Shown: positions 2,843 through 36,850 of the stretch, in pieces
Position numbering within the stretch: position 1 is the first letter of the stretch
How the letters are laid out: every line of letters begins with the position of its first letter
Origin: an uncultured Planctomycetaceae bacterium
Lineage (GTDB): Bacteria > Planctomycetota > Planctomycetia > Planctomycetales > Planctomycetaceae
Assembly: GCA_937916515.1 (NCBI GenBank)
Contig: CALFSX010000050.1
Location: 1-36,850 of the forward strand
Length of the DNA stretch: 36,850 bases
Direction of reading: 5' to 3'
Translations under genes and position numbers: made by a program
The notes under the pieces: model-generated
What the model was told of the DNA's origin: nothing
What the model saw: only the letters and a program-made list of their open reading frames with translations
Database searches by the model: none

Positions 2843-3817
2843 ATGAGCGTTATCTGCACCGAAAATTTATGCAAATCATACGGCAGTCGTCGTGGTGTTG
2901 GTGACGTGAGCCTGTCGGTTGAGGCCGGCGAAATGTTTGGGTTTCTGGGGCCAAATGGGGCAGGTAAGTCGACCACGATTCGCATGCTGATGGGGTTTCT
3001 GAAAGCGTCGTCGGGCACGGCCACGATTTTGGGCCGAGATTGCTGGGCAGCCAGCGATCTGGTCAAGGAACACGTCGGCTACGTTGCTGGCGACGTCAGG
3101 CTGTATTCCTGGCTGACGGCCCGCAAGGCTTTTCAAATTGTGGGCGAGATTCGAAGGACAGACGTGGCCGAAGCAGGGCTGAAGCTTGCCGAACGATTTC
3201 AGTTGGAAGTTGATCTTCCCGTTCGCAAAATGTCTCGAGGAAATCGACAGAAGGTGGCGTTGGTTTTAGCCCTCGCCCACAGGCCGCGGGTGATGATTTT
3301 GGACGAACCAACGTCCGGCCTTGATCCATTGATGCAGGATACGTTAACGGAATGCCTGCGAGAACTTGCGGCGAATGGCAGTACTGTGTTTTTTTCCAGT
3401 CACACGCTGAGTGAAGTTGACGCACTTTGCGACCGTGTCGCCATCGTTCGCGATGGTCAGATTGTGGCCGATGAACACCTGTCGACAATGAAACACCAGG
3501 CACCTCGATCGGCCGTGCTTACGTTTAGAAGTGAACAGGCTGCAAAAGCGGTTGTGGTGCCGGACTTTGTTCGTTTGGCCAGCGCCAATGCGGAAACACT
3601 GGTCCTGGAACTGGTTGGTTCAGCTGTAGAGCTGACGAAGTGGGCTGCCACTCAGGCGATTACAGACATTGCAATTGGGCAGCCGAACCTGGAGACACTG
3701 TTTCGAGGATATTACAACGTGCCTATGCCTACGGCCCAGCGGCTGGATTCCGATGAAGCTGATTTTGGTTTGTCTGGTTATCCTGGCACTGAGCTGAAGT
3801 CGGTGGAACAATTATGA
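2843..3817 (+). CDS. ABC-2 type transporter, ATP-binding subunit
   Basis: Cytoplasmic ATPase of a two-gene exporter, 324 residues. The Walker A is GPNGAGKST at residues 36-44, the signature is MSRGNRQKVAL from residue 130 (a variant of LSGGQ), and the Walker B is VMILDEPTSGLDP from residue 150. The switch His is in FFSSHTLSEVDALCD. The roughly 110-residue C-terminal extension is common in DrrA/NatA-like exporters. The ATG at 2843 places family similarity at residue 3. The stop overlaps the permease start (ATGA), so the two are translationally coupled. The substrate cannot be told; drug, lipid or Na+ export are all possible for this class. Confidence 0.9.
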   Translation: MSVICTENLCKSYGSRRGVGDVSLSVEAGEMFGFLGPNGAGKSTTIRMLMGFLKASSGTATILGRDCWAASDLVKEHVGYVAGDVRLYSWLTARKAFQIVGEIRRTDVAEAGLKLAERFQLEVDLPVRKMSRGNRQKVALVLALAHRPRVMILDEPTSGLDPLMQDTLTECLRELAANGSTVFFSSHTLSEVDALCDRVAIVRDGQIVADEHLSTMKHQAPRSAVLTFRSEQAAKAVVVPDFVRLASANAETLVLELVGSAVELTKWAATQAITDIAIGQPNLETLFRGYYNVPMPTAQRLDSDEADFGLSGYPGTELKSVEQL

Positions 3818-4626
3818 AGGGTGTACTGCGAAAGATCTTTCACGAAGTGCGTTGGCCGGTTCTGTTTTTCAGCGTTGGGCTGGCCATTATTATGGCGCTA
3901 TTGACGGCCTTGCTGCCTAAAGTGCTGGGCGACATCGACAAGGTGTTTGAAAAACTGCCATTCATCAAGCCGATCATTACCGCCTTGTTGGGAATGGACC
4001 CGGGTGACGGTTTTACCGCGCAAATGATGCAGGCGTTTCTATGGGTTCACCCAACTGTGTTGTCGATCATCTGGGCTCATGAACTCATGTATTGTTCCAG
4101 AATGCCCGCAGCAGAAGTTGACCGCGGAAGCATCGACTTCCTGCTGGGGCTGCCGATTTCACGCTGGCGTCTGTATCTGGCTGAAACGATTGGCTGGTTG
4201 ATTTCTGGAGCCACGATTATTTGCGTCGGCGTTTCAGGTCACTTGATCGCGTCATCCATGCTTCAGCCGCAGATGCGTCCTGGAGCCTTTGCCATTTTTT
4301 GTGTGGTTGCGAATCTGTTTGCCGTGTATCTGGCGGTGGGCGGAATTTCGTTTCTGGTTTCAGCCAGCAGTGATCGTCGAGGACGGGCAATTGGGATTAT
4401 GTTCGCGATTCTGCTGGTGTCGTTTCTGTTGAACTTTCTGGCTCAGTTTTGGCAGCCGGCAAAGCAGGTGTCGTTTCTTAGCGTGATGGAATACTATCGT
4501 CCTGCGGCGGTGATTCAGTCGGGAAGTTTCCCCTGGTTTGATGTCGGCACTCTGTGTGGCATTGCCTTTGTTGCGTGGCTTAGCGCCGGCATTGTTTTTC
4601 GCAGACGTAGCATTTGTACGGTTTGA
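3814..4626 (+). CDS. ABC-2 type transporter, permease subunit
   Basis: A 270-residue integral membrane protein whose ATG overlaps the stop of the ATPase gene by four bases. It shows about six hydrophobic spans, beginning with VLFFSVGLAIIMALLTALL, and a cytoplasmic loop of the form IDFLLGLPISRWRLYLAET. That loop is the coupling segment typical of ABC-2 permeases, where such exporters read LPLSR. It would form the membrane channel for the ATPase at 2843-3817. The next gene starts 148 bp later and is probably separate. Confidence 0.85.
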   Translation: MKGVLRKIFHEVRWPVLFFSVGLAIIMALLTALLPKVLGDIDKVFEKLPFIKPIITALLGMDPGDGFTAQMMQAFLWVHPTVLSIIWAHELMYCSRMPAAEVDRGSIDFLLGLPISRWRLYLAETIGWLISGATIICVGVSGHLIASSMLQPQMRPGAFAIFCVVANLFAVYLAVGGISFLVSASSDRRGRAIGIMFAILLVSFLLNFLAQFWQPAKQVSFLSVMEYYRPAAVIQSGSFPWFDVGTLCGIAFVAWLSAGIVFRRRSICTV

Positions 4627-5316: not shown

Positions 5317-8300
5317 CTACTTCGCGAAATGCTCCATGGCCGTATCTTTGACGGCTTTCAGGTCCAGCTTGCCTGTTCCCAGCAAAGGAATGTGCTCCAT
5401 TTCCATAAAGCTGTCTGTTGATGGAATCCACAGGTTGGGCAGTCCGGCTTCCTGAAGTTCGTTCAGGACCTGGCTAATCGGCTTGGTAAATGGCTTGTGC
5501 AGAACAATAAGGCGTTCGCCTTTCTTCGCGTCCGGAACAGCCGTTACGGCACACAGGATTTCAGGTTCCTCAGTAAGGTCGTCGTCGATGATCCGCATTA
5601 GTTCCTGTTCGATTCGAATGTGAGGGACCATTTCGCCACCGATCTTTGAAAATCGACTTTGGCGTCCGGTAATTTCAATGAAACCGTCTTCGTCGATGCG
5701 TCCGATATCGCCGGTGTCGTACCAGCCATCAATAATGACTTCGGCGGTTTTCTCCGGGCGATTCAGGTAGCCCATCATCACGTTTGGCCCCTTGATTCGC
5801 AGCAGACCTTCTGTGTTGACAGGCAGTTGCTCTCCTGTTTCCGCGTGAAATATTCCGGCAAAGGTTCCGGGAATCACCTGCCCAACGGTGCCGTGGCGGG
5901 TTAGCGACTGGTCGCCACTTTTTCCTGAACGTTTGTCGGGAACGTTTAGCGCCGCGGCGGGTGAAAGTTCTGTTGTGCCGTACGCTTCCGTCGGTTCGAA
6001 TCCATACTTTTCGTTCCAGGCCTCTCGTAGTTCCGGTGGCATTTTTTCAGCACCAACCAACGCAATGTCTACTGTCTTCATTTGTTCAGGGTCACAACGC
6101 TTCATGTATGACTTCAGGAACGTTGGTGTGGCCGCGATAATCGTGACTTTGTGTTTGCCAATCAGGTCTGCCACCACGCGAGCATCCAGCGGATTGAAGT
6201 GGTAGACGGCTGCTGGATCCATCGCAAACGGCAGCCACATTCCTACTGTGAAACCGAACGAGTGGAAGAACGGCAGAACGCCCAGAATCACGTCGTGAGC
6301 ATCCAGTCGGAACAGTTCTGTTGCGGCGTCCAGGTTGGAATTGATATTGCCGTTGGAAAGCATGACTCCCTTGGGTTCACCCGTTGAACCTGAGGTAAAG
6401 ATGATCGTCATCAAGTCATCGGCGGTTTTTTGTTGCAGGCCAAGTTTGTTGACCAGCATGCCGAACGGCATTAGCTTTGCGACGGCCAACGCACGCAGTT
6501 TGGCCAGTCCGCCAACCTGTTCTTTCAGGTCTTCCATGTAAACCAGTTCAGCGTCAAGCTTCATTGGCCGCTTTTGCATGAACTTTTTACTGGTGATGAC
6601 TTTCTTAATGCCTGCTTCACGGATGCAGAAGTTTACAACATCATCAGACAGCGTGTAGTTGAGATTGACCGTAACTCGCCCCGACAATGTGACGGCCAGA
6701 TTGGCAATCGATCCACCAACGGATGGCGGCAGCAGCAGCCCCACCATGTTTTCGTCTGCATCCAATACAGAGGATGTCAGCAGCTTGTGGAAGGCTAAAG
6801 CGCCAGTCAGCAGTTTACCGCCGGTTAACGTTGCACCGGCGGAATCGGAAACCTTTGTGCGTCCCCAAGCGGATCTGCATTGGCGAATAAAACGAAGAGC
6901 TGGAATCATGTGTCTGTCCTTTCTGCGGTTTGCAGATTCGTCTTTTAGTTGCAGCACAGCTGTTCGCACAGCGTCCACGTCTGTGACTTCTTCATACGGC
7001 ATAAGTTTGCCGAAATTAATTGATACCGGATAAGGCCATTGTTTCGGCTTCTTCCAAAAGAATTTTCCGCCTTCGTTGCTGAAAATGCTGCCCCACAGTT
7101 CATCCAGATATACGGGCAATACCGGAGCGTCCGTGCCTTTTAGGATCTTAATCATGCCGCGTTCGAATTTCAGAAGCTCGCCGGTTCGTGAAATCTTGCC
7201 CTCTGCGAAAATACACACCAGCTCGCCGTTCTTTAATGCGTCGCGAGCTGTGTTCAAAGATTGAATCAGTGCCTTCGGTCCATCGTCACTTTTGATGGGG
7301 ATGATTTCGAACAGTCTGGCAAGCCAGCCAATAAATCCACCCTGCACATAATCTGCGTAGGCAATCATTCTGATATTTCGTGAGCTTGTCAGCAGGATCA
7401 GTACGCCATCAATCCACGATACATGGTTCGCCACAAAAAGAGCAGGGCCGTGTTCCGGAATGTTTTCTGTTCCATACGTGCGGACTCGATAAATTGTACG
7501 ACTCATCAGCCACACAACAAATCGAATGGTCGCCTGTGGAATCAACCAGACGACGTAGACCACAATCGGCAAAGTTCCCAGGCCTGCAATCAGAAAGATC
7601 TGGTCAGCACTGCAATTCAGTCCGTTGCGCAGGAAGGGAAACAAAATTGAAACGGCCAGCACGCCGATGGAAGTAATCTGATGGCAGGCGGCCAGAATTG
7701 CTCCTAACGATTCACGCGGGCTTCGATCCTGCATGTAAGCGTTTAGCGGTACGTTAAACAGGCCGCCACCGATGCCGATCATCGCCAGTGAAATTCCGAA
7801 AATCCACCACGACTCACTACTGAAATAGGCGACAACACAAGCCAGCGCCATCAACACTGTGCCCAGTGGAACCATTCCCAGCTCAACGCGTCCACATGAC
7901 CACAGGCCAGCCAGGACGCTGCCAATTCCGACACCCAGCGATAACACCGCAAGGTACTGACCAACGCTGGTTTGCCCCATGTTTAAATTGTTGATCACAA
8001 ACGTGTCAATGTTCAGCTGAGCCAACGCGGCCAATGACCAAAAGAATGCAATCCCCATGGTGACTCGCAGAATCGGCAGGTCTGATGTGACCAGCTTGAT
8101 GTCACGCCATGAATATTTGATTGGATTCAACGGGAACTCGATCCCTGGATTTGCCGGGTTCACCTTAGCGATCAGAAGTGACGCGAATACTCCCGCAGCC
8201 GCTACTCCCAACAATGCTGTGGCTGAAATCCACAAGCCCGCAACTCCATCAGGTTGCGTGACTGCATACAACGCGTTGCCGGCAATTGTTCCGGCGATGA

Positions 8301-8811
8301 CGGCTACCAAAGTCACAAGTCCGGCAAGTCCGTTGGCAGCGGAAAGGTTTGACTTAGGAACCAGTTCCGGAATGATGCCGTACTTGGCCGTGCTTAATAA
8401 TGCGCTTTGAGCACCCGTCAGAAAAAGTACGATAAACATGCCCACAATGTTGCCGTACCAAATTGCAACCACGCCCAACAGCATGATCACTAATTCGGCA
8501 ATCTTTAGCCAAATCGTTGACGATCGTTTGCTGAAGCGGTCGGCAACCCAGCCAGACCAGGGCGCGAATACGATTGACGGAAGAATAAAACTTCCCAGTC
8601 CAACCGCCAGAACCAATGATTCATTCGCCTGTTTTTCTGCGTCGCTAAGTCCGGGGATTGAACCGTATTGATATTTCGCAATCGGGACGATCAGCCAACG
8701 AAACATGTTGTCGTTCACTGCCGTTAGAAACCCCATCACCAGATAGCCGATGAACGACTTTGATGTGAGCGAACCGTGGGCAGAATTGTCGTCGTTGGTG
8801 ACCTGCGTCAT
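5317..8811 (-). CDS. aas: Trifunctional LplT-PlsC-acyl-ACP synthetase fusion (Aas-like)
   Basis: About 1164 residues in three domains. Residue numbers here count from a possible GTG at 8862. Residues ~35-440 are a major-facilitator transporter like LplT (lysophospholipid flippase), with about 12 hydrophobic spans. Residues ~455-650 are a PlsC-type acyltransferase with the HX4D motif NHVSWIDG (His480, Asp485) and FAEGKISRTGELLKFERG. Residues ~660-1181 are an AMP-forming acyl-ACP synthetase with P-loop TSGSTGEPKG (823-832), YGTTEL and GWYDTGDIG. In E. coli LplT and Aas are separate neighbours that import lysophospholipid and re-acylate it; here all steps lie in one chain. The ATG at 8811 (MTQVTNDDN) is preferred, because the upstream GTG lies inside a dispersed repeat copy. 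Known fusion type, confident call. Confidence 0.9.
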   Translation of the reverse strand: MTQVTNDDNSAHGSLTSKSFIGYLVMGFLTAVNDNMFRWLIVPIAKYQYGSIPGLSDAEKQANESLVLAVGLGSFILPSIVFAPWSGWVADRFSKRSSTIWLKIAELVIMLLGVVAIWYGNIVGMFIVLFLTGAQSALLSTAKYGIIPELVPKSNLSAANGLAGLVTLVAVIAGTIAGNALYAVTQPDGVAGLWISATALLGVAAAGVFASLLIAKVNPANPGIEFPLNPIKYSWRDIKLVTSDLPILRVTMGIAFFWSLAALAQLNIDTFVINNLNMGQTSVGQYLAVLSLGVGIGSVLAGLWSCGRVELGMVPLGTVLMALACVVAYFSSESWWIFGISLAMIGIGGGLFNVPLNAYMQDRSPRESLGAILAACHQITSIGVLAVSILFPFLRNGLNCSADQIFLIAGLGTLPIVVYVVWLIPQATIRFVVWLMSRTIYRVRTYGTENIPEHGPALFVANHVSWIDGVLILLTSSRNIRMIAYADYVQGGFIGWLARLFEIIPIKSDDGPKALIQSLNTARDALKNGELVCIFAEGKISRTGELLKFERGMIKILKGTDAPVLPVYLDELWGSIFSNEGGKFFWKKPKQWPYPVSINFGKLMPYEEVTDVDAVRTAVLQLKDESANRRKDRHMIPALRFIRQCRSAWGRTKVSDSAGATLTGGKLLTGALAFHKLLTSSVLDADENMVGLLLPPSVGGSIANLAVTLSGRVTVNLNYTLSDDVVNFCIREAGIKKVITSKKFMQKRPMKLDAELVYMEDLKEQVGGLAKLRALAVAKLMPFGMLVNKLGLQQKTADDLMTIIFTSGSTGEPKGVMLSNGNINSNLDAATELFRLDAHDVILGVLPFFHSFGFTVGMWLPFAMDPAAVYHFNPLDARVVADLIGKHKVTIIAATPTFLKSYMKRCDPEQMKTVDIALVGAEKMPPELREAWNEKYGFEPTEAYGTTELSPAAALNVPDKRSGKSGDQSLTRHGTVGQVIPGTFAGIFHAETGEQLPVNTEGLLRIKGPNVMMGYLNRPEKTAEVIIDGWYDTGDIGRIDEDGFIEITGRQSRFSKIGGEMVPHIRIEQELMRIIDDDLTEEPEILCAVTAVPDAKKGERLIVLHKPFTKPISQVLNELQEAGLPNLWIPSTDSFMEMEHIPLLGTGKLDLKAVKDTAMEHFAK

Positions 8812-8835
8812 CGGAATCTTAAGTGGTTGAGTTAG

Positions 8836-9070
8836 ACTTCTTAAAACAGCGAACTTGTTCACGTTGAGTCAAGTTTTTTGAGCGACGTAGTCGCGTTTCC
8901 GAGCGTCAGCTCGAATGGTCTGAGGCACTGCCTCGTTAGAGTCTTATCTGGAAATGATGCGAGCACGGTGCGCATGTTGCCCGCAGCGACAACGGAGCGG
9001 CTCGGCGATTCGAGCGTTCCACGTCTTTCTGCCAGCCACGCCACTGGGTCAAGGGCAACGCCCTTGTTAA
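8836..9070 (+). repeat. Dispersed hairpin-string repeat, copy A (full length)
   Basis: Longest plus-oriented copy of a non-coding element also at 10305-10427, 15485-15614 and, inverted, 23559-23793. It starts with GAACTTGTTCACGTTGAGTC and ends with the hairpin CAAGGGC-AAC-GCCCTTG. In between are short perfect hairpins: GCGAC-GTA-GTCGC, CGAGC-GTCA-GCTCG and GAGGC-ACT-GCCTC. Weak open frames across it are not considered genes. It separates the divergent aas and DCC-family genes and abuts the aas 5' end. Confidence 0.9.
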
Positions 9071-10502: not shown

Positions 10503-11219
10503 ATGATTGTCCATTCCTGCCGTTCGCAATGTATTGCTGCTGTTTTGTTGTTCGTCGTCAATATTGCTGGTGCCCAGGATGTGAAGCACGCTGAGATTGA
10601 TGGCACTGGACCGGGGTGGGTTTCGTTGGGCCAGGACGACTTCGAAAAAGTAAACAGCGCTGATGATACGTGGACTTTTAAAGGCGAAGAAATCCACTGT
10701 ACAGGGATCCCAGTCAGCGTGATGAGAACGAAGACGCAATACACGAATTTTGAACTGGTGTGCGAGTGGCGTCATATGAAGTCAGCCGGTAACTCCGGCA
10801 TTTTCGTCTGGACGATTCCTGAATCATTGGAACGACTAACGGGCCCCGGTTTGCCACATGGGATTGAAGTTCAGGTATTGGACCTTGGCTACAAAGAACA
10901 GTACGAAAAAGGTGGCCGAAAGGCTGACTGGTTTACATGCCACGGCGACGTGTTTCCTGTGGGGGCATCAAAGATGACGCCATTCGCTCCCGTAGCTCCC
11001 AACGGAACTCGCAGTTTTCCATCCAAAGAACTTAGTAAGGGGACTGGTGAATGGAATCATTACTATGTTCGAGCAATCAACGGAGAAGTGCGTTTGTGGG
11101 TGAACGGCGAAGAAGTGTCCGGTGGAACAGCCTGCAGCCCCGCGACCGGATTTCTGTGCCTGGAATCCGAAGGTTCACCGGTTGAGTTTCGGGGATTGAA
11201 AATTCGCCAACTGCCGTAA
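10503..11219 (+). CDS. Secreted DUF1080 (3-keto-disaccharide hydrolase-like) protein
   Basis: 238 residues. Residues 1-24 form a signal peptide ending VNIAGA-QD. The rest is one LamG-like beta-sandwich of the DUF1080 family. Landmarks are DDTWTFKGEEIHCTG, NFELVCEWRHMKSAGNSGIFVW, HGIEVQVLD, GEWNHYYVRAINGEVRLWVNG and FLCLESEGSPVEFRGLKI. Members are abundant in planctomycetes and are linked to glycan breakdown, some with hydrolase activity on 3-keto sugars. The exact substrate is unknown. It stands alone between repeat copy B and mscL. Confidence 0.85.
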   Translation: MIVHSCRSQCIAAVLLFVVNIAGAQDVKHAEIDGTGPGWVSLGQDDFEKVNSADDTWTFKGEEIHCTGIPVSVMRTKTQYTNFELVCEWRHMKSAGNSGIFVWTIPESLERLTGPGLPHGIEVQVLDLGYKEQYEKGGRKADWFTCHGDVFPVGASKMTPFAPVAPNGTRSFPSKELSKGTGEWNHYYVRAINGEVRLWVNGEEVSGGTACSPATGFLCLESEGSPVEFRGLKIRQLP

Positions 11220-11533
11220 CGCTCATTCACGGCGAGAGCCTTCGGCGGACGTTCGGTTTCAGCCGGCACGCTACCCAATTGACTGCAGCAATGTTGCACA
11301 AAAACGACTTTGTGCGTTATGCGAAAATGAACACTCGGCAGAACGATTGCTTCCAGGGAACTCAGCCACATCAGAAAAGTACCGAACTTACGCTACCAGC
11401 GCCCTGAATTCGGTGCTTTGGGGCAGAGTCAAGATAATTCGAGGCATATGGCACAGTTATTGTATAAGACGTGCGGCACGGGCGCGGCTGTTGCGCCCAT
11501 CATCCCCTGTTTTGTATTTAGGATATTGGGCTA
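11220..11533. other. Intergenic region between the DUF1080 gene and mscL
   Basis: No gene, repeat or clear terminator was seen. It presumably holds the mscL promoter; a TATAAG at 11463-11468 is a possible -10, but no good -35 was found. Confidence 0.35.
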
Positions 11534-11974
11534 ATGGGTCTTATTAAAGAGTTCAAAGATTTCGCGATGAAGGGCAACGTTGTCGACATGGCTGTCGGCA
11601 TTATTATTGGAGTTGCCTTTGGAAAGATTGTCAGCTCGCTGGTAAGCGACGTGATCATGCCTCCCATCGGCAAACTTGTTGGTGGTGTGAATTTTTCTGA
11701 GCTTAAGTATTCTCTTGGAAAGACAGTCGAGAAAGTTGAAGTGAATGGAAAAATGACGGAGGAGGTCAAAGAGGCTTTCATCAATTACGGTTCGTTCCTT
11801 CAAACTGTATTTGACTTCTTGATTGTTGCCGTCGCCGTTTTTGCGATGATCAAGGTCATGAGCATGGCTCAATCGTTGGCGATTAAGGAAAAGGCCGCTG
11901 AACCGGCAGCCCCACCGCCAATTCCTGAAGACATTCAGTTGCTTTGCGAAATTCGTGATGCACTTGCCAAATAG
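11534..11974 (+). CDS. mscL: Large-conductance mechanosensitive channel MscL
   Basis: 146 residues, normal length. The amphipathic N-terminus MGLIKEFKDFAMKGNVVDMA leads into TM1 (VGIIIGVAFGKIVSSLVSDVIMP). A periplasmic loop (residues ~50-85) precedes TM2 (FLIVAVAVFAMIKVM), and the C-terminal helix ends DIQLLCEIRDALAK. These are diagnostic for MscL, the pentameric pore that opens under high membrane tension to vent solutes during hypo-osmotic shock. AGGA lies about 12 nt before the ATG. It converges with an mscS gene across a shared terminator. Confidence 0.95.
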   Translation: MGLIKEFKDFAMKGNVVDMAVGIIIGVAFGKIVSSLVSDVIMPPIGKLVGGVNFSELKYSLGKTVEKVEVNGKMTEEVKEAFINYGSFLQTVFDFLIVAVAVFAMIKVMSMAQSLAIKEKAAEPAAPPPIPEDIQLLCEIRDALAK

Positions 11975-12027
11975 TTGATGTGTCACAGCTGACACAATGA
12001 CACCGCAGTTTTCATTCTGCCAATGCA

Positions 12028-12060
12028 AAAGCCCCGAACCTGAAAAAGGTTCGGGGCTTT
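12028..12060. terminator. Bidirectional terminator between mscL and mscS
   Basis: Perfect 14-bp stem AAAGCCCCGAACCT / AGGTTCGGGGCTTT with a 5-nt loop. The A-run before and T-run after the GC stem allow function in both directions, for mscL (+) and mscS (-). Confidence 0.85.
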
Positions 12061-12086
12061 AGCTGTTTGGGGCTCTGAGGTGCTTC

Positions 12087-12989
12087 TTAGGCGGCCTTGT
12101 TCTTTGCCACAAGATTCTGCATGTTCGGCACATGGATGTCCATCTGAGGAAACGGAATGCCAATTCCTGCATTATCCAGATGATTCTTGACGGCTTCCGT
12201 CAACGCTTCACTGACGGGCCAGTAGTTTTCTGCATTCGTCCAGAATCGTACGGTCCAGTTAACGCTGGATTCACCAAGGTTACCAAGCACAACCTGAAAG
12301 CCGCGACCTTCGCCGATAACAAGATTGCTTTGAAGTGATTCCGCTGCCTGTTCCAGGACTGTGCGAGTGTGTCGAATGTCTGCGCTGTATTCGCAACCGA
12401 CTGATACATCAACTCGGCGATGTTTGTGGTGAGACGTGTTTTCAATCGTTCCAGAAGTGATTGCTGAATTGGGAACGATGATTCGTCGGTTATCAGGTGT
12501 GTCCAGCGTTGTGGTGAACAGGTCGATCTCGTTCACTTTGGCTTTGACACCAGCTGCCTGAATGACGTCACCAACCTTGAATGGTCGAAACACCATCAGC
12601 ATGATTCCGGCGGCGAAATTCCCCAGCGTGCCTTGAAACGCCATGCCAATGGCAAAGCCGGCTGATGCCAGAATTGCGGCAAAGCTGGCGACCTGAAATC
12701 CAAACTTGCCCATCACTGCGACCAGAATGCTGATCATGATGGAGTAGTAAACCATCTTGCCGACAAAACGTCCCAGCGTTTCGTCAACGCGTTTGCGAAT
12801 TGGTGCGCTGACCATTCGGCCGACGAACTTAGCAACCAGATAGCCCACAAACAGCAACAGCAACACGCCAACTGCTGGCACCAGATAGTTTTCCAGCAAC
12901 GGCCAGACCTTCTGCAGGTCTCCCTTTGTCAAGCCGTCCAGGGCGGCGTTGACATCTTTGCTGGCCTGGTCGGCAACTTTCTGAACCAC
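12087..12989 (-). CDS. mscS: Small-conductance mechanosensitive channel MscS
   Basis: 300 residues from the GTG at 12989. A short N-terminal segment precedes TM1 (YLVPAVGVLLLLFVGYLVAKF). TM2 is YYSIMISILVAVMGKFG, and pore helix TM3 contains FAAILASAGFAIGMAFQGTLGNFAAGIMLM, the Ala/Gly-packed helix of MscS. The cytoplasmic beta domain follows (FKVGDVIQ, NRRIIVPNSAI), with a C-terminal FPQMDIHV close. Start assignment is uncertain. A well-placed Shine-Dalgarno serves an ATG 33 nt upstream (13022) that is immediately followed by TAA in the same frame, so translation from there would end at once. The GTG itself has no good Shine-Dalgarno. Confidence 0.9.
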   Translation of the reverse strand: MVQKVADQASKDVNAALDGLTKGDLQKVWPLLENYLVPAVGVLLLLFVGYLVAKFVGRMVSAPIRKRVDETLGRFVGKMVYYSIMISILVAVMGKFGFQVASFAAILASAGFAIGMAFQGTLGNFAAGIMLMVFRPFKVGDVIQAAGVKAKVNEIDLFTTTLDTPDNRRIIVPNSAITSGTIENTSHHKHRRVDVSVGCEYSADIRHTRTVLEQAAESLQSNLVIGEGRGFQVVLGNLGESSVNWTVRFWTNAENYWPVSEALTEAVKNHLDNAGIGIPFPQMDIHVPNMQNLVAKNKAA

Positions 12990-28751: not shown

Positions 28752-31700
28752 CTACTGTTTTGCGTTCTTCGATCGCATAAATCGTCGAGCCCATGAGGCA
28801 GCCTCCTGGTCCTTGTCGCTGTTTGTCGTACCAGAGGCCGTCTTAACTTCCTTCGTTTGGTTGCTTCCCGACGCCGGAATGATTTCCGGCCCCGAACTGT
28901 TCATTCCACGAAAGTCGCTTTCCGTCAGACTGTTTTTTGAAACCTGCATGTTGTTGTTGCCGGATGCATTTGTTTGAGGTGGCAACAGCATTCCCTGATC
29001 GTTTGATGGACCAAACTCCTGGGTTGGAATCGGTGTTCCGATTCCGCCTGGAGGCAAAGGTTCGCCCATGTATCGATCAAGATCAGATTGAGGGACACTG
29101 AACAGCGGGCCATGCAATGCTTCAGCCTGCGATTCGATAAAGTGCATGCGTTCTGATTCAACCTGCTTGATTAATTCTGAATCAGCATCGCCGTAGATAA
29201 TGCGTGGAGTCAGGAAGATCAAAAGTTCACGACGAGCAGTACTTGTGCTGTCGTACCGGAATGCGGAGCCAATCAGTGGCAGGTCACCCAGCCACGGTAC
29301 CTTGCGTTCCAGAGTCTCATCGGACTTGGTAATCATACCGCCGATGACAATCGTCTGTCCGTTGGGAACGGATACAGCTGTGTCTGCAATGGCTGAGTCG
29401 ATGATCACAGATTCTACAACGTTGCCTGTTGTGACGTCGGTGTAAACCGGCACACCACCGGAGGACAGTGAACTCTTTTCAGCGTACACGGCCATGTTAA
29501 TGGTGTTGTCCGCTGTTACTCGCGGCGTGACTTCAAGGATAATTCCGATGTCCTGCTGAGTAATATTTGGCGTCACGAAGTTGTTCGTTGTTGTTACTCC
29601 GTCAACAACTGGAACCTGCTGCCCAACCTGAATTCGAGCAGTGTTGTTGTGAGTCGTTCGAATCTGAGGGCGGCTTAACACCTGGACAGTTCTTCGTGCA
29701 GCCAGAGCTCTGACCAGCACGCTGACAGCGTCGGATTGAGCCGAGAAGACAAAGCCTCCGAAGCCCAGGTCGCTGTTTTGGCGTCCCAGCGAAAAGTTGC
29801 TGATGCCCTGGGTGGCAACAAGGCTGTTGTTTGTTCGTCCGGAGTTGTTGCCGAGTGCCGAGGTAGTGTTGTTGAAGTTGAATCCCGGTGTTTCGTTTCG
29901 CGATTCAATGTTTGTGGTTGTTGTCTGCGTTCCGTTCTGCAGAGTATTCGTTGTTGTCGTTGTAACAATGTCAGCAACAGACGACAGAATACTTCGAGAG
30001 AACAACGTTGGGTCCTGAAAACCCAGTTCAATTCCAAATTCATCCGTGTTGTCCAGTTGGACTTCAACAATCAAAGCCTGAATGATGACCTGAGGCGGAT
30101 TTGCATCCAGCTCTGTAATGATCTGGCTGATCTGGCTGAAGTATTCCGGCGAGGCACTTACAATCAGCGAGTTGCTGTTGTTATCTGCGGTAACAATCAC
30201 TTCCTGACGGATACGTTCGATGTTGCTGATCAGGTCCGTATCCTGCAGCGCCTGTTGTTCCGTCAAAAACGCATTGACTGCATCCGCAACGATGCTGGCT
30301 TCTACGTTTCGCATCGGAACAACGGTGGTTTCGCGATGTCGCGATTCCGTTGTGTCCAGTCGCAGCAGAATAGCTTCCACCACAGACAGCGATTCTGCAC
30401 CTCCCACAGCAAGAACTGTGTTTGTGCGAGTGTCTGCAGAAAACTGAACCGGTATCAGGCTGCTGGCAGCGTCTTGTGCTCCTGCAATCTGGATTCCCAG
30501 TTGGTCTTCCTGATTCTGATTTTCAAACAACGATGTCAGCAGCTCAACAGATTGAGTCGCATCGGCATTTCGCAGTGCAAAAACTTTGATTTCCGCAATC
30601 GCCGTAGGTGGCATGTCCAGTTGCTTCACCAAAGCCAGCAATAAAGGCATGCTGGCTTCCGGTGCAGAAATAACCAGGCTGTTTGAGCGTGGATCTGAGC
30701 TCACTCGAACATCCACCAGAATGCCTGAACGAATCAGCTCTCGACCATTGCCGGTTGCCGTTAGAAACTCAAGAGCAACAGACTTGCTTCCCTGAAGTTC
30801 CTGGTTGGTTTGATTGCCACCACCACCGCCAGCTCCGCCTTGTGTCTGACGTTGAGGAGGATTGGATGCACTTTGGATTGCGTTTGAGATAATCGTAGAT
30901 AGCTCGTCCGCTGTGGCGTGTTTCAGCGCTACGATTTCGACACGATGCACGGCACCCGGTTGATCGCGGTCGATCTTTTCGATCAGCTTCGCAATTTCTT
31001 CAAGGTCGTTGGCTCGTCCCTGAACCACAAGCGAGTTCGTGCGGGCATCAGTGATGACTCGAACACGAGTACCCAGTCCACCGCGTTCTTCAAAGAACGT
31101 GGTGATCGAACTGGCGACTTCTGAGGCGATGGCATTCTGTAAGCCGAACGCTTTGAATTCCGTTTCCGGATCGACTCGTTTATCCAGTCGGTCCGCCAGG
31201 TCAAGAATTGATTCCAGGTCAATTTGAGGAGCCAGAATCAGAATCGCATTGGGTTTAACAACTGGCAGAAACGCGGCAGCTTTGCGATCGTTGGTGCCTC
31301 GGTTTCGAAGTTCAGCCAACTGTGTGTAGACGTCAGACAGCAACTGAGACATTGCTTCTGAATTGACATGCTGCAGTTCCAGCAGGTGAATGTCAGGCAG
31401 TGAGCCGACGCTCATTTCTTCCAGCTGTTGAATAATTCTGGACACTTTATCAACGTCGCCTTCATTACCCTTCAGAATCAGGATGCCCAGTTCCTGCATC
31501 GCCTGAACGTTGACGTCGCCTCGCAGGTTGAGCGAAGACCCGTCAGCTCCCGGTTGAGTTGTATTGCCGGCTTGTGGTTGACCAGCTTCACGTTCAGCTT
31601 GTTGCCCCGCTGGAGTCTGCAATGCCACCATTCGATGAATTTGCTCATTCAGGTCTTTGGCAGTGACATCGGTTACTCCCTTGTTGGGAAGCAGCTTGAC

Positions 31701-32696
31701 GGTTTCGTTGGCGTCGATCTGAGGCTTATCCAGCTCGTCGATCAGGCGAGTTAAGTGGCTGGCCCGTTTTGAGGTGGCTTCAACCAAAAGTGCATTGTTG
31801 GCCTGATCGATTCCGACGCGGAACAGTGCTTGAGGCTCTTCGCCGTCTTCCGTCTCAACAGCATCGTTGACGACGAATGTTGGCAGTCCATTCAATCCCT
31901 GCTTCACCAGTTTTGATCGAGATTCAAACACCAGATAGATCGAACGAGCCACATCGGCCGCCTTGGCGTTTTCGATACTGACTGTTTTTACTGAAACCGG
32001 ACCAGGGTCCTGAGGTGGTGTTGCAGCAGCTGATTCCTGAGCGTTGGCTGGTCGAGCATTTACGAAACCCGCAAACGGAGCAGCCGGCTGCTGAGCGGTT
32101 TCAGCATTTTGCTGTCCCTGTTGTTGCGACGCCCAGCTAACGCGAGGACTACCGTCTTCTGTGCGAGCACTTGCCTGCTGAAACGGAGACTGGGCGTTGC
32201 GGTTGCCGAACAACGTTGAGGTTTGCCCCGGCTTGGCAGGGTAGGCCGAATTGGACCATTCCGTGAGAGCAGGGCGAGCGTATTTTGTGCGAGCTTCCTC
32301 AAGCTTCATTACAATCAGAAATTCGCCCTGATTCATCAAACGGAAACCCTGAGGTTCCAGTTCGGCGTTCAGAATACGAATTGCTGATTCCGCTTCGTAC
32401 CGCTTGCGATCTCGGCGAGCGTACCGACCGTGGGGGACCTTATCCATCACAAGCGTGAGGTTGCCCTGTTCTGCGACATTGCGCAGCACTCGGTCCCACG
32501 TTGATTCGAAGAAGTTCAGGCGTATGCCTGCTTCATCTTCGATGGGTTCAGGAAGTTCTGTACCAGATCCAAAGGCTTCGCGAAATGGCTTCGCGGATTC
32601 TTCAGATGCGTCCAGAGATGTAGTTTGATTAAGCAACCAGGCTCCACCGGCAGTTGTGCCAGCAAGCAGAATCGCTAGAAAGCCATGACGTCTCAC
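28752..32696 (-). CDS. Giant secretin (GspD/PilQ superfamily) with expanded N-domains
   Basis: 1314 residues from a GTG with AAGGA 8 nt upstream. Signal peptide MRRHGFLAILLAGTTAGGAW. Residues ~57-133 are an STN/N0-like domain. A Gln/Ala-rich linker follows. Then come seven NolW/secretin-N-like repeats starting near residues 236, 333, 436, 514, 586, 703 and 790, each opening with a strand such as VKTVSIENA, IHLLELQHV or VEIVALKHA. The secretin pore domain (~880-1180) carries VPNGQTIVIGGM and VPWLGDLPLIGSAF. A low-complexity tail of ~120 residues closes it. Ordinary GspD has three N1-N3 repeats. It should form a large outer-membrane channel for type II secretion or pilus-like export. A lipoprotein follows; no ATPase or pseudopilin genes lie in this window. 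Confidence 0.88.
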   Translation of the reverse strand: MRRHGFLAILLAGTTAGGAWLLNQTTSLDASEESAKPFREAFGSGTELPEPIEDEAGIRLNFFESTWDRVLRNVAEQGNLTLVMDKVPHGRYARRDRKRYEAESAIRILNAELEPQGFRLMNQGEFLIVMKLEEARTKYARPALTEWSNSAYPAKPGQTSTLFGNRNAQSPFQQASARTEDGSPRVSWASQQQGQQNAETAQQPAAPFAGFVNARPANAQESAAATPPQDPGPVSVKTVSIENAKAADVARSIYLVFESRSKLVKQGLNGLPTFVVNDAVETEDGEEPQALFRVGIDQANNALLVEATSKRASHLTRLIDELDKPQIDANETVKLLPNKGVTDVTAKDLNEQIHRMVALQTPAGQQAEREAGQPQAGNTTQPGADGSSLNLRGDVNVQAMQELGILILKGNEGDVDKVSRIIQQLEEMSVGSLPDIHLLELQHVNSEAMSQLLSDVYTQLAELRNRGTNDRKAAAFLPVVKPNAILILAPQIDLESILDLADRLDKRVDPETEFKAFGLQNAIASEVASSITTFFEERGGLGTRVRVITDARTNSLVVQGRANDLEEIAKLIEKIDRDQPGAVHRVEIVALKHATADELSTIISNAIQSASNPPQRQTQGGAGGGGGNQTNQELQGSKSVALEFLTATGNGRELIRSGILVDVRVSSDPRSNSLVISAPEASMPLLLALVKQLDMPPTAIAEIKVFALRNADATQSVELLTSLFENQNQEDQLGIQIAGAQDAASSLIPVQFSADTRTNTVLAVGGAESLSVVEAILLRLDTTESRHRETTVVPMRNVEASIVADAVNAFLTEQQALQDTDLISNIERIRQEVIVTADNNSNSLIVSASPEYFSQISQIITELDANPPQVIIQALIVEVQLDNTDEFGIELGFQDPTLFSRSILSSVADIVTTTTTNTLQNGTQTTTTNIESRNETPGFNFNNTTSALGNNSGRTNNSLVATQGISNFSLGRQNSDLGFGGFVFSAQSDAVSVLVRALAARRTVQVLSRPQIRTTHNNTARIQVGQQVPVVDGVTTTNNFVTPNITQQDIGIILEVTPRVTADNTINMAVYAEKSSLSSGGVPVYTDVTTGNVVESVIIDSAIADTAVSVPNGQTIVIGGMITKSDETLERKVPWLGDLPLIGSAFRYDSTSTARRELLIFLTPRIIYGDADSELIKQVESERMHFIESQAEALHGPLFSVPQSDLDRYMGEPLPPGGIGTPIPTQEFGPSNDQGMLLPPQTNASGNNNMQVSKNSLTESDFRGMNSSGPEIIPASGSNQTKEVKTASGTTNSDKDQEAASWARRFMRSKNAKQ

Positions 32697-34123: not shown

Positions 34124-34555
34124 GTGTTTCAGTTCCTACGTCGCCTGCTGTCAGGCAACCGAAATCAGTCCAATTCCCCCAAACGAATGTTGCAGATGTT
34201 CGACCGCGAACGGCAAAATCTGCAGCAGGATTTTTTTCACGCCGCCGCAGCTTCCGGCAAACCTCGCGGCCTGCGCTGGAAAAATTGCGATTGGCTGGCG
34301 ACCTACGTTTTGGTGAATGACGAAGCAACCGGCACGTTGACGTTGTTTTGCGGCGTCAACGTTTCGTTTGAAGCCATTGAAGGCGGCGACATGGAAGGCG
34401 TGGAAGCCGTTTCCATGATTCGCGATGGCAGCGCCGTCTTTCACGCAAGGGAAGGACGCTGGGGAACCGGTGGCAAAGTGTTGTTTAACGTTACCCCGCA
34501 AACTGCTGCAACCGTTGCCGCTTCAGGTCAGTCCATTGTCGCAGCGTCTGACTAA
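34124..34555 (+). CDS. Small conserved-looking protein of unknown function
   Basis: 143 residues from a GTG at 34124 (MFQFLRRLLSGN). No signal peptide and no family recognised. Ordered blocks such as GLRWKNCDWLATYVLVND, TLTLFCGVNVSFEAIEGGDM and TAVFHAREGRWGTGGKVLF-like text (SAVFHAREGRWGTGGKVLFN) alternate strands and turns, as expected for a compact cytoplasmic beta-rich domain. The composition is protein-like throughout, which favours a real gene. It is convergent with the ABC-like gene at 34600, 44 bp away. Confidence 0.6.
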   Translation: MFQFLRRLLSGNRNQSNSPKRMLQMFDRERQNLQQDFFHAAAASGKPRGLRWKNCDWLATYVLVNDEATGTLTLFCGVNVSFEAIEGGDMEGVEAVSMIRDGSAVFHAREGRWGTGGKVLFNVTPQTAATVAASGQSIVAASD

Positions 34556-34599: not shown

Positions 34600-36450
34600 T
34601 CAGCCATCGCTACGGAATACATTAAACCGCATGTATTCCCAGTGTCTGTACAGTTCGGTTTTTCGAACCAGATCTTCGTGTCGTCCGTCTGCGGCCACTC
34701 TTCCGTTGTGAAGCATCACAACTCGGTCGCAGCGTTTTACAGTAGACAGCCGAGATGGCAGGAAGATCACCGTGCGGCCCTGGCAAATGCGTTGATAGGT
34801 GTCGTCAATCATTGCTTTTGTTTCGGTGTCCAGCATGGCGTCCGGTTCCTGAATCACCAGCAACGCCGGCTTTTTGGCGATCGCTCTGGCAAGGCTCAGT
34901 CGAAACACCTGGCCCACATCCAGCTTTGCGAAGTTGTCACCCAGATGGGTTTCGTATCCTTTGGAAAGCTGGCGAATAAAGGTCTCTGCATGAGCCGTTT
35001 TGCAGGCTTCAATGGCGTCCTGTCGAGAAATATCCGCCTGTCCGGCTGTGATGTTCTCCAACACTGTCGTGTTAAAGACCGGCTCATTGCCTCCCACAAT
35101 CACAGCTTCTGCTCGAAGCGATTCCAGAGTCACACGTTTAATGTCCTGTCCGTCAATCAAAACCTGTCCGCGTGTGGGATCGCTAAAACGTGGAATTAAG
35201 CTGATCAGCGCTTCTGCTTCAGCGGAATTAAGAGACAGCAATGCGACCTTTTGGCCGGCTTCAATCTTCAGGTCAAGGCCCGATAGCAATTCCGGGTTGG
35301 ATTCTGTTTCGACGCTGACCTGATTCAGTTGCAGCGATCGAGACATGGGTTCCAGGAAACGAGCTCCCACAACCTGGCTTACGGGAGGCACTCGCAGCAG
35401 GTACTGGTTGATTTCTTCTGCGGCCACGGTTGAAGCACCGTGGCTGGTTGGTACGCATTCCCAGCGTTTCAGGCAAAGTTTGACCAGAGCGACGCCAATT
35501 GCAATCATCACTCCCGTTGATAGTTCAATCACGGCGGGGCGTGCCAGTAGATGCCGAGTCAGAATAAAGCAGGGCAGGGCAATCGTTGTGATCATGATCA
35601 GCAGCGACGTCCAGCCACCGTAAAGCTGCTGCCGTCGCAGGTCTTCGTGTTTGGACTGATACCCCGACAGATTCGCCTTGAACTGTTCGTGTTCCAGGTT
35701 TTCCATTCCGTAACCGGCAACGATTCTGGCTTTCCCCAGATCTTCTGTGAGCCGCTGCAGCCCTCGGTCAACCTGTTCGGAAAGAAGATTTGCAGATGCC
35801 TGATGTCGTTTGGTTTCGATTCGGGCCACCCACCAGCCGACGATGATGGGAATTACACATTCCAGGCTGATTCTCCATTGCGTCGCAATCAGTAATGCGG
35901 CCAGCGCGATCAAATCACAAAACGTGGTTAGTCGGGTGAACGCCCAGCGTTGAGCATTATCCTGTAATTGTTGAGCTGTGGTTTGGAACAGCGAGGCTGC
36001 AATTCGCCGCTGTTTCCCCGTCAGGTCGCCGGGGTTTGACCGCAGAGCGTGTCGCTGGATGTGTTCGCGAAGACGGTTGACGCCTTTGGAGACCTGTCGG
36101 TTTACTTTTTCCTGAGCGAATGCTCGAAGAGCTGTCCGCAGAAACAAAAGCACGACAATCGCGAAAATGAGCGTCGTTAAAGCCGACATCCGACTGTGTA
36201 GCAGTGGAATGGCATCCACGATTCTTTGAATGGTCGTCGCAGCAGTTTCTGGATCGGCTTGCAGCAGGCCGACGTCGGAGCCTTGAGCGTTCCGGCTTAG
36301 CAGCTCAACAATTCCGCCGGAACACAACACGATAGCGATCAGTGCAACCGCGGAAATGACTGCAGCGACTGTCGTTGTGACCAGTGATCGACCAAGAAAG
36401 TGTCGGTCAGAAACTACGCGTTGCAGAGATGTGGAAGCAGCGTCGGACAC
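34600..36450 (-). CDS. ABC exporter-like membrane protein with degenerate nucleotide-binding motifs
   Basis: 616 residues. Residues ~20-330 are an ABC type-1 exporter transmembrane domain with about six helices. Residues ~370-600 are an ABC nucleotide-binding fold. Every ATPase motif is altered. Walker A (GxxGxGKST) reads VALLSLNSAEAEALISL (402-418), with Ala412 where Lys should be. The signature LSGGQ reads LDVGQVFRLSLARA. Walker B reads LLVIQEPDAMLD, with Gln for the Asp. The switch His is missing in FLPSRLSTVKRCD. Structural text around them (RLSTVKRCDRVVMLHNG, FNTTVLENI) is intact, so the fold is kept. Probably no ATP hydrolysis by a homodimer; it may pair with an active partner encoded elsewhere or act as a regulator. 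Confidence 0.85.
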   Translation of the reverse strand: MSDAASTSLQRVVSDRHFLGRSLVTTTVAAVISAVALIAIVLCSGGIVELLSRNAQGSDVGLLQADPETAATTIQRIVDAIPLLHSRMSALTTLIFAIVVLLFLRTALRAFAQEKVNRQVSKGVNRLREHIQRHALRSNPGDLTGKQRRIAASLFQTTAQQLQDNAQRWAFTRLTTFCDLIALAALLIATQWRISLECVIPIIVGWWVARIETKRHQASANLLSEQVDRGLQRLTEDLGKARIVAGYGMENLEHEQFKANLSGYQSKHEDLRRQQLYGGWTSLLIMITTIALPCFILTRHLLARPAVIELSTGVMIAIGVALVKLCLKRWECVPTSHGASTVAAEEINQYLLRVPPVSQVVGARFLEPMSRSLQLNQVSVETESNPELLSGLDLKIEAGQKVALLSLNSAEAEALISLIPRFSDPTRGQVLIDGQDIKRVTLESLRAEAVIVGGNEPVFNTTVLENITAGQADISRQDAIEACKTAHAETFIRQLSKGYETHLGDNFAKLDVGQVFRLSLARAIAKKPALLVIQEPDAMLDTETKAMIDDTYQRICQGRTVIFLPSRLSTVKRCDRVVMLHNGRVAADGRHEDLVRKTELYRHWEYMRFNVFRSDG

Positions 36451-36850
36451 GCAAAGACCTTACGTAAAATGGTCAACACTGAGCGTCGTTGACGCAAAGT
36501 GCCAACAAACCTTGGGTTGCCGACGTCTGAACCGAAACTCAAATCGTCTTAGTCTTCGACAAGATCGTACAACGCCTGGCTGTATGAAGCCTGTGTTTTA
36601 CGGACAGCGAAATGTTGCCAAAACTTTGCCCGATCTTAAGTCAGTCGGCAGCAGCCTGTAACAAGTTACAACTTACCTGCGATCTAAAGCAGTCACAACC
36701 ACCACATGACGCCGCTGTCCGCTTTTGCCCTGAATGCGAATTTGCTCAGGAATCTGGTAGCTTCAGGCGAAATGCACAATCTACTCCCCGTGAAACGCAA
36801 TAAGACTCACACATCGGTTTAGAGCGCATTTCACGGGAGACTGGCGCCAG
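36451..36850. other. Right-edge non-coding region with an inverted repeat at 36787-36837
   Basis: No gene is supported up to the window edge. CCCGTGAAACGC (36787-36798) and GCATTTCACGGG (36826-36837) are inverted with one mismatch around a 27-nt loop. It may be an operator pair or a hairpin near the 5' end of a gene beyond the window. Confidence 0.4.

Follow-up and report, generated by a model that had tools for sequence, protein, structure and literature searches.

A degenerate ABC exporter conserved beside an orphan NosY-like permease in planctomycetes

The exporter encoded by gene P0001 in the window (the whole stretch of DNA analysed here, contig C50, 36,850 nucleotides) is best explained, with moderate confidence, as an ATP-independent pseudo-ABC exporter that would assist an orphan ABC-2 permease in a structural or regulatory capacity. 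Judged from the aligned residues, its independence from ATP is well supported, and its partnership with the permease we infer from gene order alone. Degenerate ABC sites are well known; a family that has lost both halves of the site in all sampled members, while its fold persists and its gene mostly retains one neighbour in many families of a class, would reveal how much value a nucleotide-binding domain (NBD) has in the absence of ATP.

Domain layout, fold and motif state of P0001

The features of the locus, in window positions, are the following.

34600..36450, minus strand: pseudo-ABC exporter gene P0001, 616 aa, GTG start, one uninterrupted frame
35395..36390, minus strand: transmembrane domain (type IV exporter fold), residues 21-352
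35338..35394, minus strand: linker, residues 353-371
34657..35337, minus strand: pseudo nucleotide-binding domain, residues 372-598
35212..35235, minus strand: former Walker A, residues 406-413, SLNSAEAE in place of GxxGxGK[ST]
35089..35091, minus strand: position of the former Q-loop glutamine, now G454
34909..34923, minus strand: former signature, residues 510-514, LDVGQ
34846..34863, minus strand: former Walker B, residues 530-535, with the aspartate replaced by Q534 and the catalytic glutamate E535 retained
34753..34755, minus strand: position of the former switch histidine, now S566
34612..34656, minus strand: C-terminal segment, residues 599-613, family consensus YRHWEYxRFNxFR
36451..36850, no strand: contig end, 400 bp upstream of the exporter, after which the sequence stops

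P0001 carries an ABC_membrane domain (43.8 bits, cut-off 28) followed by an ABC_tran domain (52 bits, cut-off 25), and because both Pfam cut-offs are passed, automatic annotation may call the exporter ATP-driven. The structural matches of its AlphaFold2 model (a monomer built with 26 relatives as input; mean pLDDT 81.9, pTM 0.67) in Foldseek and VIA-align are MsbA and ABCB exporters, with a Z of 24.8, an rmsd of 4.8 and 537 aligned residues against MsbA 7ph2_A in VIA; at the level of a model, these matches bear out the initial annotation's view that the fold is preserved. Against the NCBIfam profile of the MsbA lipid A flippase (TIGR02203), P0001 scores 204.7 bits, below the curated cut-off of 602. 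Domain order and modelled exporter fold both identify P0001 as a type IV ABC exporter by descent. It resembles the MsbA/ABCB-type (type IV) exporters in the order of transmembrane domain (TMD) and NBD, in both Pfam domains and in fold, but differs from them in being without the P-loop, the Walker B aspartate, an intact signature, the Q-loop glutamine and the switch histidine.

Canonical exporters carry the Walker A motif GxxGxGK[ST] and the signature LSGGQ, and the replacements in P0001 were read from an alignment with such exporters. The substitutions S511D and G512V turn the signature into LDVGQ, with the second glycine and the glutamine retained; the D-loop aspartate (D541) is also retained. 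The gene had been described initially as an intact 616-codon frame with all ATPase motifs lost. A single open frame does run through 34600-36450 on the minus strand, and Walker A, the Walker B aspartate, the signature serine and the switch histidine are all replaced, but "all" is slightly too strong because E535 and D541 are still present. Loss of the Q-loop glutamine is an addition to the losses listed earlier. By its residues, then, P0001 is without the motif set of an ATP-hydrolysing ABC transporter. According to PMC7756269, an ATP site combines Walker A and Walker B from one subunit with the signature from its partner; since P0001 has lost Walker A as well as the signature, a homodimer would have no canonical site and in a heterodimer both sites would be spoiled. 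ATP hydrolysis by the known rules appears unlikely.

Distribution, descent and selection

Among named genomes, those closest to the window's are Fuerstiella and further metagenome assemblies of Planctomycetaceae (NCBI class Planctomycetia), and the exporter-bearing class, read from these relatives, is probably Planctomycetia. Within the order, members scoring 400 bits or higher occur in 143 of 150 genomes (G043, G069, G078, G098, G115, G147 and G152 have none). Across the class, a profile match of at least 345 bits, a chosen cut on which presence counts hinge, was obtained in 129 of 198 genomes (50 of family f1 and 79 others); motifs were inspected in 18 of the 79 scoring genomes outside family f1, and all 18 were degenerate, as were additional sequences examined. 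The 16 best-scoring loci outside the class were all canonical and none degenerate, in a search that a strongly degraded member could escape. One 99% complete family f1 genome (G043, genus g43) has neither an exporter at 345 bits nor a match to the permease described below, and another genome of the same genus (G078) has the permease only.

Motif residues were tallied over 80 distinct members including P0001, of which 62 score at least 600 bits (family f1) and 18 belong to other families; the tally omits one partial member (L067), repeats with identical last 520 residues, and five very degraded members (G401, G412, G430, G519 and G539), which also stand outside the adjacency count given below and whose P-loops are gone as well. 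None of the 80 has the second or third glycine of the P-loop or the Walker B aspartate, and all have the catalytic glutamate. Lysine occupies the Walker A lysine column in nine members (9/18 in the other families, 0/62 in family f1). In the signature, the serine survives in five members, the first glycine in none and the second glycine in 70. The Q-loop glutamine is kept in 12 (12/18 in the other families, 0/62 in family f1) and the switch histidine in 14 (12/18 and 2/62, respectively). By comparison, each of the 19 canonical controls from the same searches has the canonical residue at every tallied position. All 80 members are thus degenerate, with substitutions of the same kind as those first noted in P0001, and as judged from these alignments the degeneration of P0001 is more than chance, the same losses being found across relatives and absent from canonical exporters. 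Because the Q-loop glutamine and switch histidine mostly survive outside family f1, the simplest reading would be a stepwise loss, in which Walker A, Walker B and the signature went first and the Q-loop and histidine later, in family f1. Residue 408, in the old P-loop, is aspartate or glutamate in 60 of the 80, and phosphate would therefore be repelled there in most members.

In a tree of 65 rows, the 43 degenerate rows form one clade (support 100/100, stem 1.42); outside it lie 22 rows, namely 21 canonical exporters and L004, which is counted with them. On this phylogeny the degenerate exporters sampled share one origin within the class. Selection was gauged from 16 close family f1 pairs, for which dN/dS is 0.05-0.21; these pairs (dS 0.13-0.83) have overlapping members, are non-independent and come from the 40 pairs of lowest dS. 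Many of the 40 are distant, their dS unreliable and their dN/dS close to 1 or higher, among them canonical proteins and family pairs with L165 (L048-L165, 0.57; L165-L148, 0.95; dS unreliable in both). The ratio below 1 that the initial annotation had proposed as a check is accordingly found among relatives; the window's own gene is in none of the pairs because its nearest relatives are 62-64% identical.

That P0001 is a recent pseudogene or an assembly error has a negligible probability. Nothing beyond the lost motifs speaks for it, and its intact frame, the same losses in 80 of 80 members and the relatives' dN/dS stand against it; for a recent pseudogene, shared losses and low dN/dS are grounds for rejection. 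Intact orthologues combined with relaxed selection had been offered initially as the outcome that would overturn the reading of P0001 as preserved; the relatives proved instead to be degenerate, with close pairs well below 1.

Conservation is uneven along the protein. Taken as a whole, the NBD falls little short of the canonical controls in conservation (mean entropy 1.39 and 1.44 vs 1.29), and the linker has a mean top-residue frequency of 0.65 in the family versus 0.42 in the controls; because NBD core and linker are still conserved, a folded-dimer platform is suggested. The TMD is poorly conserved, with a mean entropy of 2.35 vs 2.21 in canonical controls. Residues conserved only in the family lie in the linker (Q359, F365, P368), the NBD (E443, K484, H487, D550, R554) and the C-terminus (R602, H603, Y606, N610). 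Within the NBD, the old Walker A now counts as one of the more variable stretches: equal or lower entropy is seen in 86% of NBD windows in family f1 and in 99% in the other families. For the former signature, Walker B and H-loop of family f1, only 29%, 18% and 24% of NBD windows, respectively, are as conserved or more so, and these regions may therefore have a retained or new role there. A site in the region of the former signature, Walker B or H-loop is possible on these alignments; a novel ligand-binding site within the former P-loop is disfavoured, the stretch being more variable than most of the NBD, though the acidic residue 408 recurs.

The conserved permease and the search for a partner

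After frames overlapping or opposing the two genes (clusters 2-5) were set aside, the neighbour that best keeps its place beside the exporter is a gene for an ABC-2 family permease (about 330 aa), located immediately upstream in the same orientation. PF12679 scores above its cut-off in three of five permease proteins (the other two lie just below) and in four of five in a second set, and the C-terminus reads FEDRDLA in 25 of 27 rows. One permease was modelled (from L159); its best match is NosY 7o0z_E (Z 19.4, rmsd 4.0, 245 aligned), and its Foldseek matches at E 0.001 or better number ten, all of them NosY chains. Among PDB sequences, up to E 1, NosY is the sole match of the permease (E 0.0052). 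The conserved neighbour is thus a NosY-like ABC-2 permease with, as modelled, a NosY-type fold; the two are alike in structure, but a nearby ABC ATPase gene is the exception for the neighbour permease.

The permease is adjacent upstream and on the same strand in 67 of the 75 genomes with at least 1 kb of upstream sequence (54/58 in family f1, 13/17 in other families), a count that omits named contigs duplicating G genomes, genomes with less than 1 kb upstream and the five very degraded members. The two open frames are separated by a median of 62 bp (range -102 to 754; 69 genomes). The arrangement is not universal: exporters with no permease in the upstream sequence available occur in G002, G019, G033, G092, G428, G446, G455 and G529. 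In G539, G401, G412, G430 and G519, the gene behind the permease is a very degraded exporter that escaped the first profile; these five were located via the permease and their count is thus non-independent.

By genome, the permease is present in 128 of the 129 class genomes that score for the exporter, in 63 of the 69 that do not, and in 191 of 198 overall. The single exception among exporter-bearing genomes is that of the window, where protein and profile searches of the assembly did not find it. In other loci of the genus (L159, L061, L173 and L060), 173-633 bp lie between the end of the upstream permease gene and the exporter start, and the absence of the permease from the window's genome is likely to reflect an assembly gap. 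Conversely, no exporter-like ORF follows the permease in 19 permease loci, most of them picked from genomes without a detected exporter, or in four further loci examined. Because the dependence is one-way, the exporter occurring with the permease and the permease often without the exporter, the exporter may be read as an accessory subunit. Outside the class, seven of eight ORFs tested downstream of the orphan NosY-like permease, in its orientation, encode a calcineurin-like phosphoesterase, the eight having been chosen from fifteen loci (named are L271, L272, L273, L275, L278, L280 and L285).

The initial annotation had raised the possibility that P0001 is one half of a heterodimer and had suggested looking for an active half-exporter encoded next to it. 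This found no support, the conserved neighbour being the NosY-like permease: only one (L151) of 38 neighbourhoods of degenerate members, each reaching up to about 8 kb on either side and shorter at contig ends, holds a second exporter-like ORF, 5 kb away. An intact partner could be encoded elsewhere, such as an MsbA-like exporter of the L002 type; all 29 genomes searched have three to nine PF00664 matches each, and for five of these genomes the analysis covered a canonical L002-type exporter. Degenerate-site exporters (TM287/288, TmrAB, TAP, CFTR and Pdr5) do resemble the family in that loss of catalytic motifs has been kept over evolution, and to our knowledge one working site is always left in the complex. 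Their losses, however, are split across the halves, leaving one site canonical, whereas both sites are affected in the family, where Walker A and signature are lost in one chain. The portions of PMC7756269 that deal with such transporters describe this split between chains, and in Pdr5 an alteration of all motifs of one site; the other site of Pdr5 works, in which it differs from the exporter family. Neither an adjacent intact half nor split losses, the two features of a degenerate-site heterodimer that were looked for, was found in the family, and with no intact exporter as conserved neighbour a heterodimer with a distant partner is distinctly improbable.

ABC ATPases are likewise scarce around these genes. 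An ORF with P-loop and signature lies within 2.5 kb of the exporter in two of the 38 neighbourhoods (L169 and L178, on the opposite strand) and within 8 kb in six; among 28 permease loci there is none within 2.5 kb and one within 8 kb. Of the 12 PF12679 loci in the complete genome G042, 10 lie within 2 kb of an ABC ATPase, and the pseudo-exporter locus has none. The corresponding figure in G018 is three of six, with the nearest ATPase about 88 kb from the exporter locus, and since half of its loci have no ATPase nearby, orphan permeases are not rare. A further 18 permease loci, 15 outside the class and three inside, have no ABC ATPase within flanks of up to 1.5 kb. As outgroup permeases also stand without an adjacent ATPase, the exporter did not displace one, and the permease seems to have been an orphan for a long time; the idea that the exporter replaced an ATPase of the operon is weakened by these outgroup permeases and by the three of six in G018.

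The same counts bear on the proposal that the pseudo-NBD docks on the coupling helices of the ABC-2 permease in place of its ATPase, giving a nucleotide-free hybrid complex. The G042 pattern, in which the exporter locus offers only the pseudo-exporter, counts in favour of such docking. We consider it quite improbable nonetheless: orphan permeases are common enough in G018, permeases from outside the class likewise stand without an ATPase beside them, the permease occurs in many class genomes in which no exporter was detected, an ABC-ATPase-like ORF does occur near the exporter in the few neighbourhoods noted above, and the geometry would be unusual.

A second degenerate exporter, of the L004 type, was rejected as a partner, as it falls outside the clade and has its own operon of exporter, HlyD and outer-membrane efflux protein; its position in the tree is unsure because of a branch length of 4.02. 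The L004-type exporter at L229:7103-9250 (G000:C12) keeps its P-loop and has lost the Q-loop, signature, catalytic glutamate and switch histidine; the HlyD and outer-membrane efflux genes follow at L229:9247-10719 and 10913-12730, an arrangement like that of a type I secretion operon. The type was matched in 12 of the 13 genomes whose loci were taken for it, weakly in G410, and it varies, L238 retaining the glutamate and histidine and L233 and L240 being without a P-loop.

Proposed role, alternatives and other features of the window

Since the TMD fold is retained and the ATP site is gone, the TMD might work alone as a facilitator, scramblase or ion-driven carrier, with the pseudo-NBD merely holding the dimer together. 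SbmA/SLiPT transporters, which have conserved acidic residues in the membrane, offer the comparison. In the part of PMC13316013 concerned with them, they are, like the exporter family, an exporter-type TMD uncoupled from ATP, SbmA being described as a proton-driven relative of the ABC exporter TMD; they differ in being described as related to the TMD alone, whereas the exporter family keeps its ABC_tran NBD. An SbmA-like proton path was rejected: with membrane position judged by eye, no aspartate or glutamate conserved in at least 60% of family f1 lies inside the hydrophobic stretches, the conserved acidic residues (142, 236, 250 and 253) falling in cytosolic loops and the conserved basic ones (105, 175, 215, 273 and 283) seeming, also by eye, to be close to where helices end on the cytosolic side. 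The low conservation of the TMD, though equally low in canonical controls, and the retention of the NBD count further against a carrier, which we regard as unlikely, if less so than the heterodimer.

In the preferred reading, the exporter would assemble as an ATP-independent homodimer, retaining the pseudo-NBD as a rigid cytosolic platform, and would contribute an accessory subunit, structural or regulatory, to a complex formed by the ABC-2 permease; any ATPase serving it would be provided from elsewhere in the genome. A scaffold or regulator, which the initial annotation had listed among its options, is thus a possible role. A bolder form, which we hold only tentatively and think unlikely, is a hybrid nucleotide-free machine, in which a type IV homodimer that degenerated early would join a NosY-like type V permease and the pseudo-NBDs would serve as docking platform. 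If true, the family would be one of stand-alone half-exporters that have given up ATP altogether and are yet under strong selection. Through the exporter, an orphan permease present in 191 of the 198 class genomes also becomes accessible to genetics. Among the open-access literature matches listed, none describes a planctomycete pseudo-ABC exporter, and the phrase "ABC transporter" is absent from the main text of a study of essential genes in Planctopirus limnophila (PMC10632474).

Several other genes were noted in the window. Downstream of the exporter, a small convergent ORF (34124-34555, plus strand, 143 aa) matches no Pfam family and has relatives in eight neighbourhoods including the window's own, two of them from the same genome. 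A secretin of 1314 aa is encoded at 28752-32696 on the minus strand, with five Secretin_N stretches and a GspD score of 368.4 bits, above the cut-off of 351.35. At 2843-4626 on the plus strand, an ordinary ABC ATPase gene overlaps a putative membrane permease gene by four bases, and the 1181-aa ORF at 5317-8862 on the minus strand appears, by eye, to be a putative fusion of transporter, acyltransferase and acyl-ligase.
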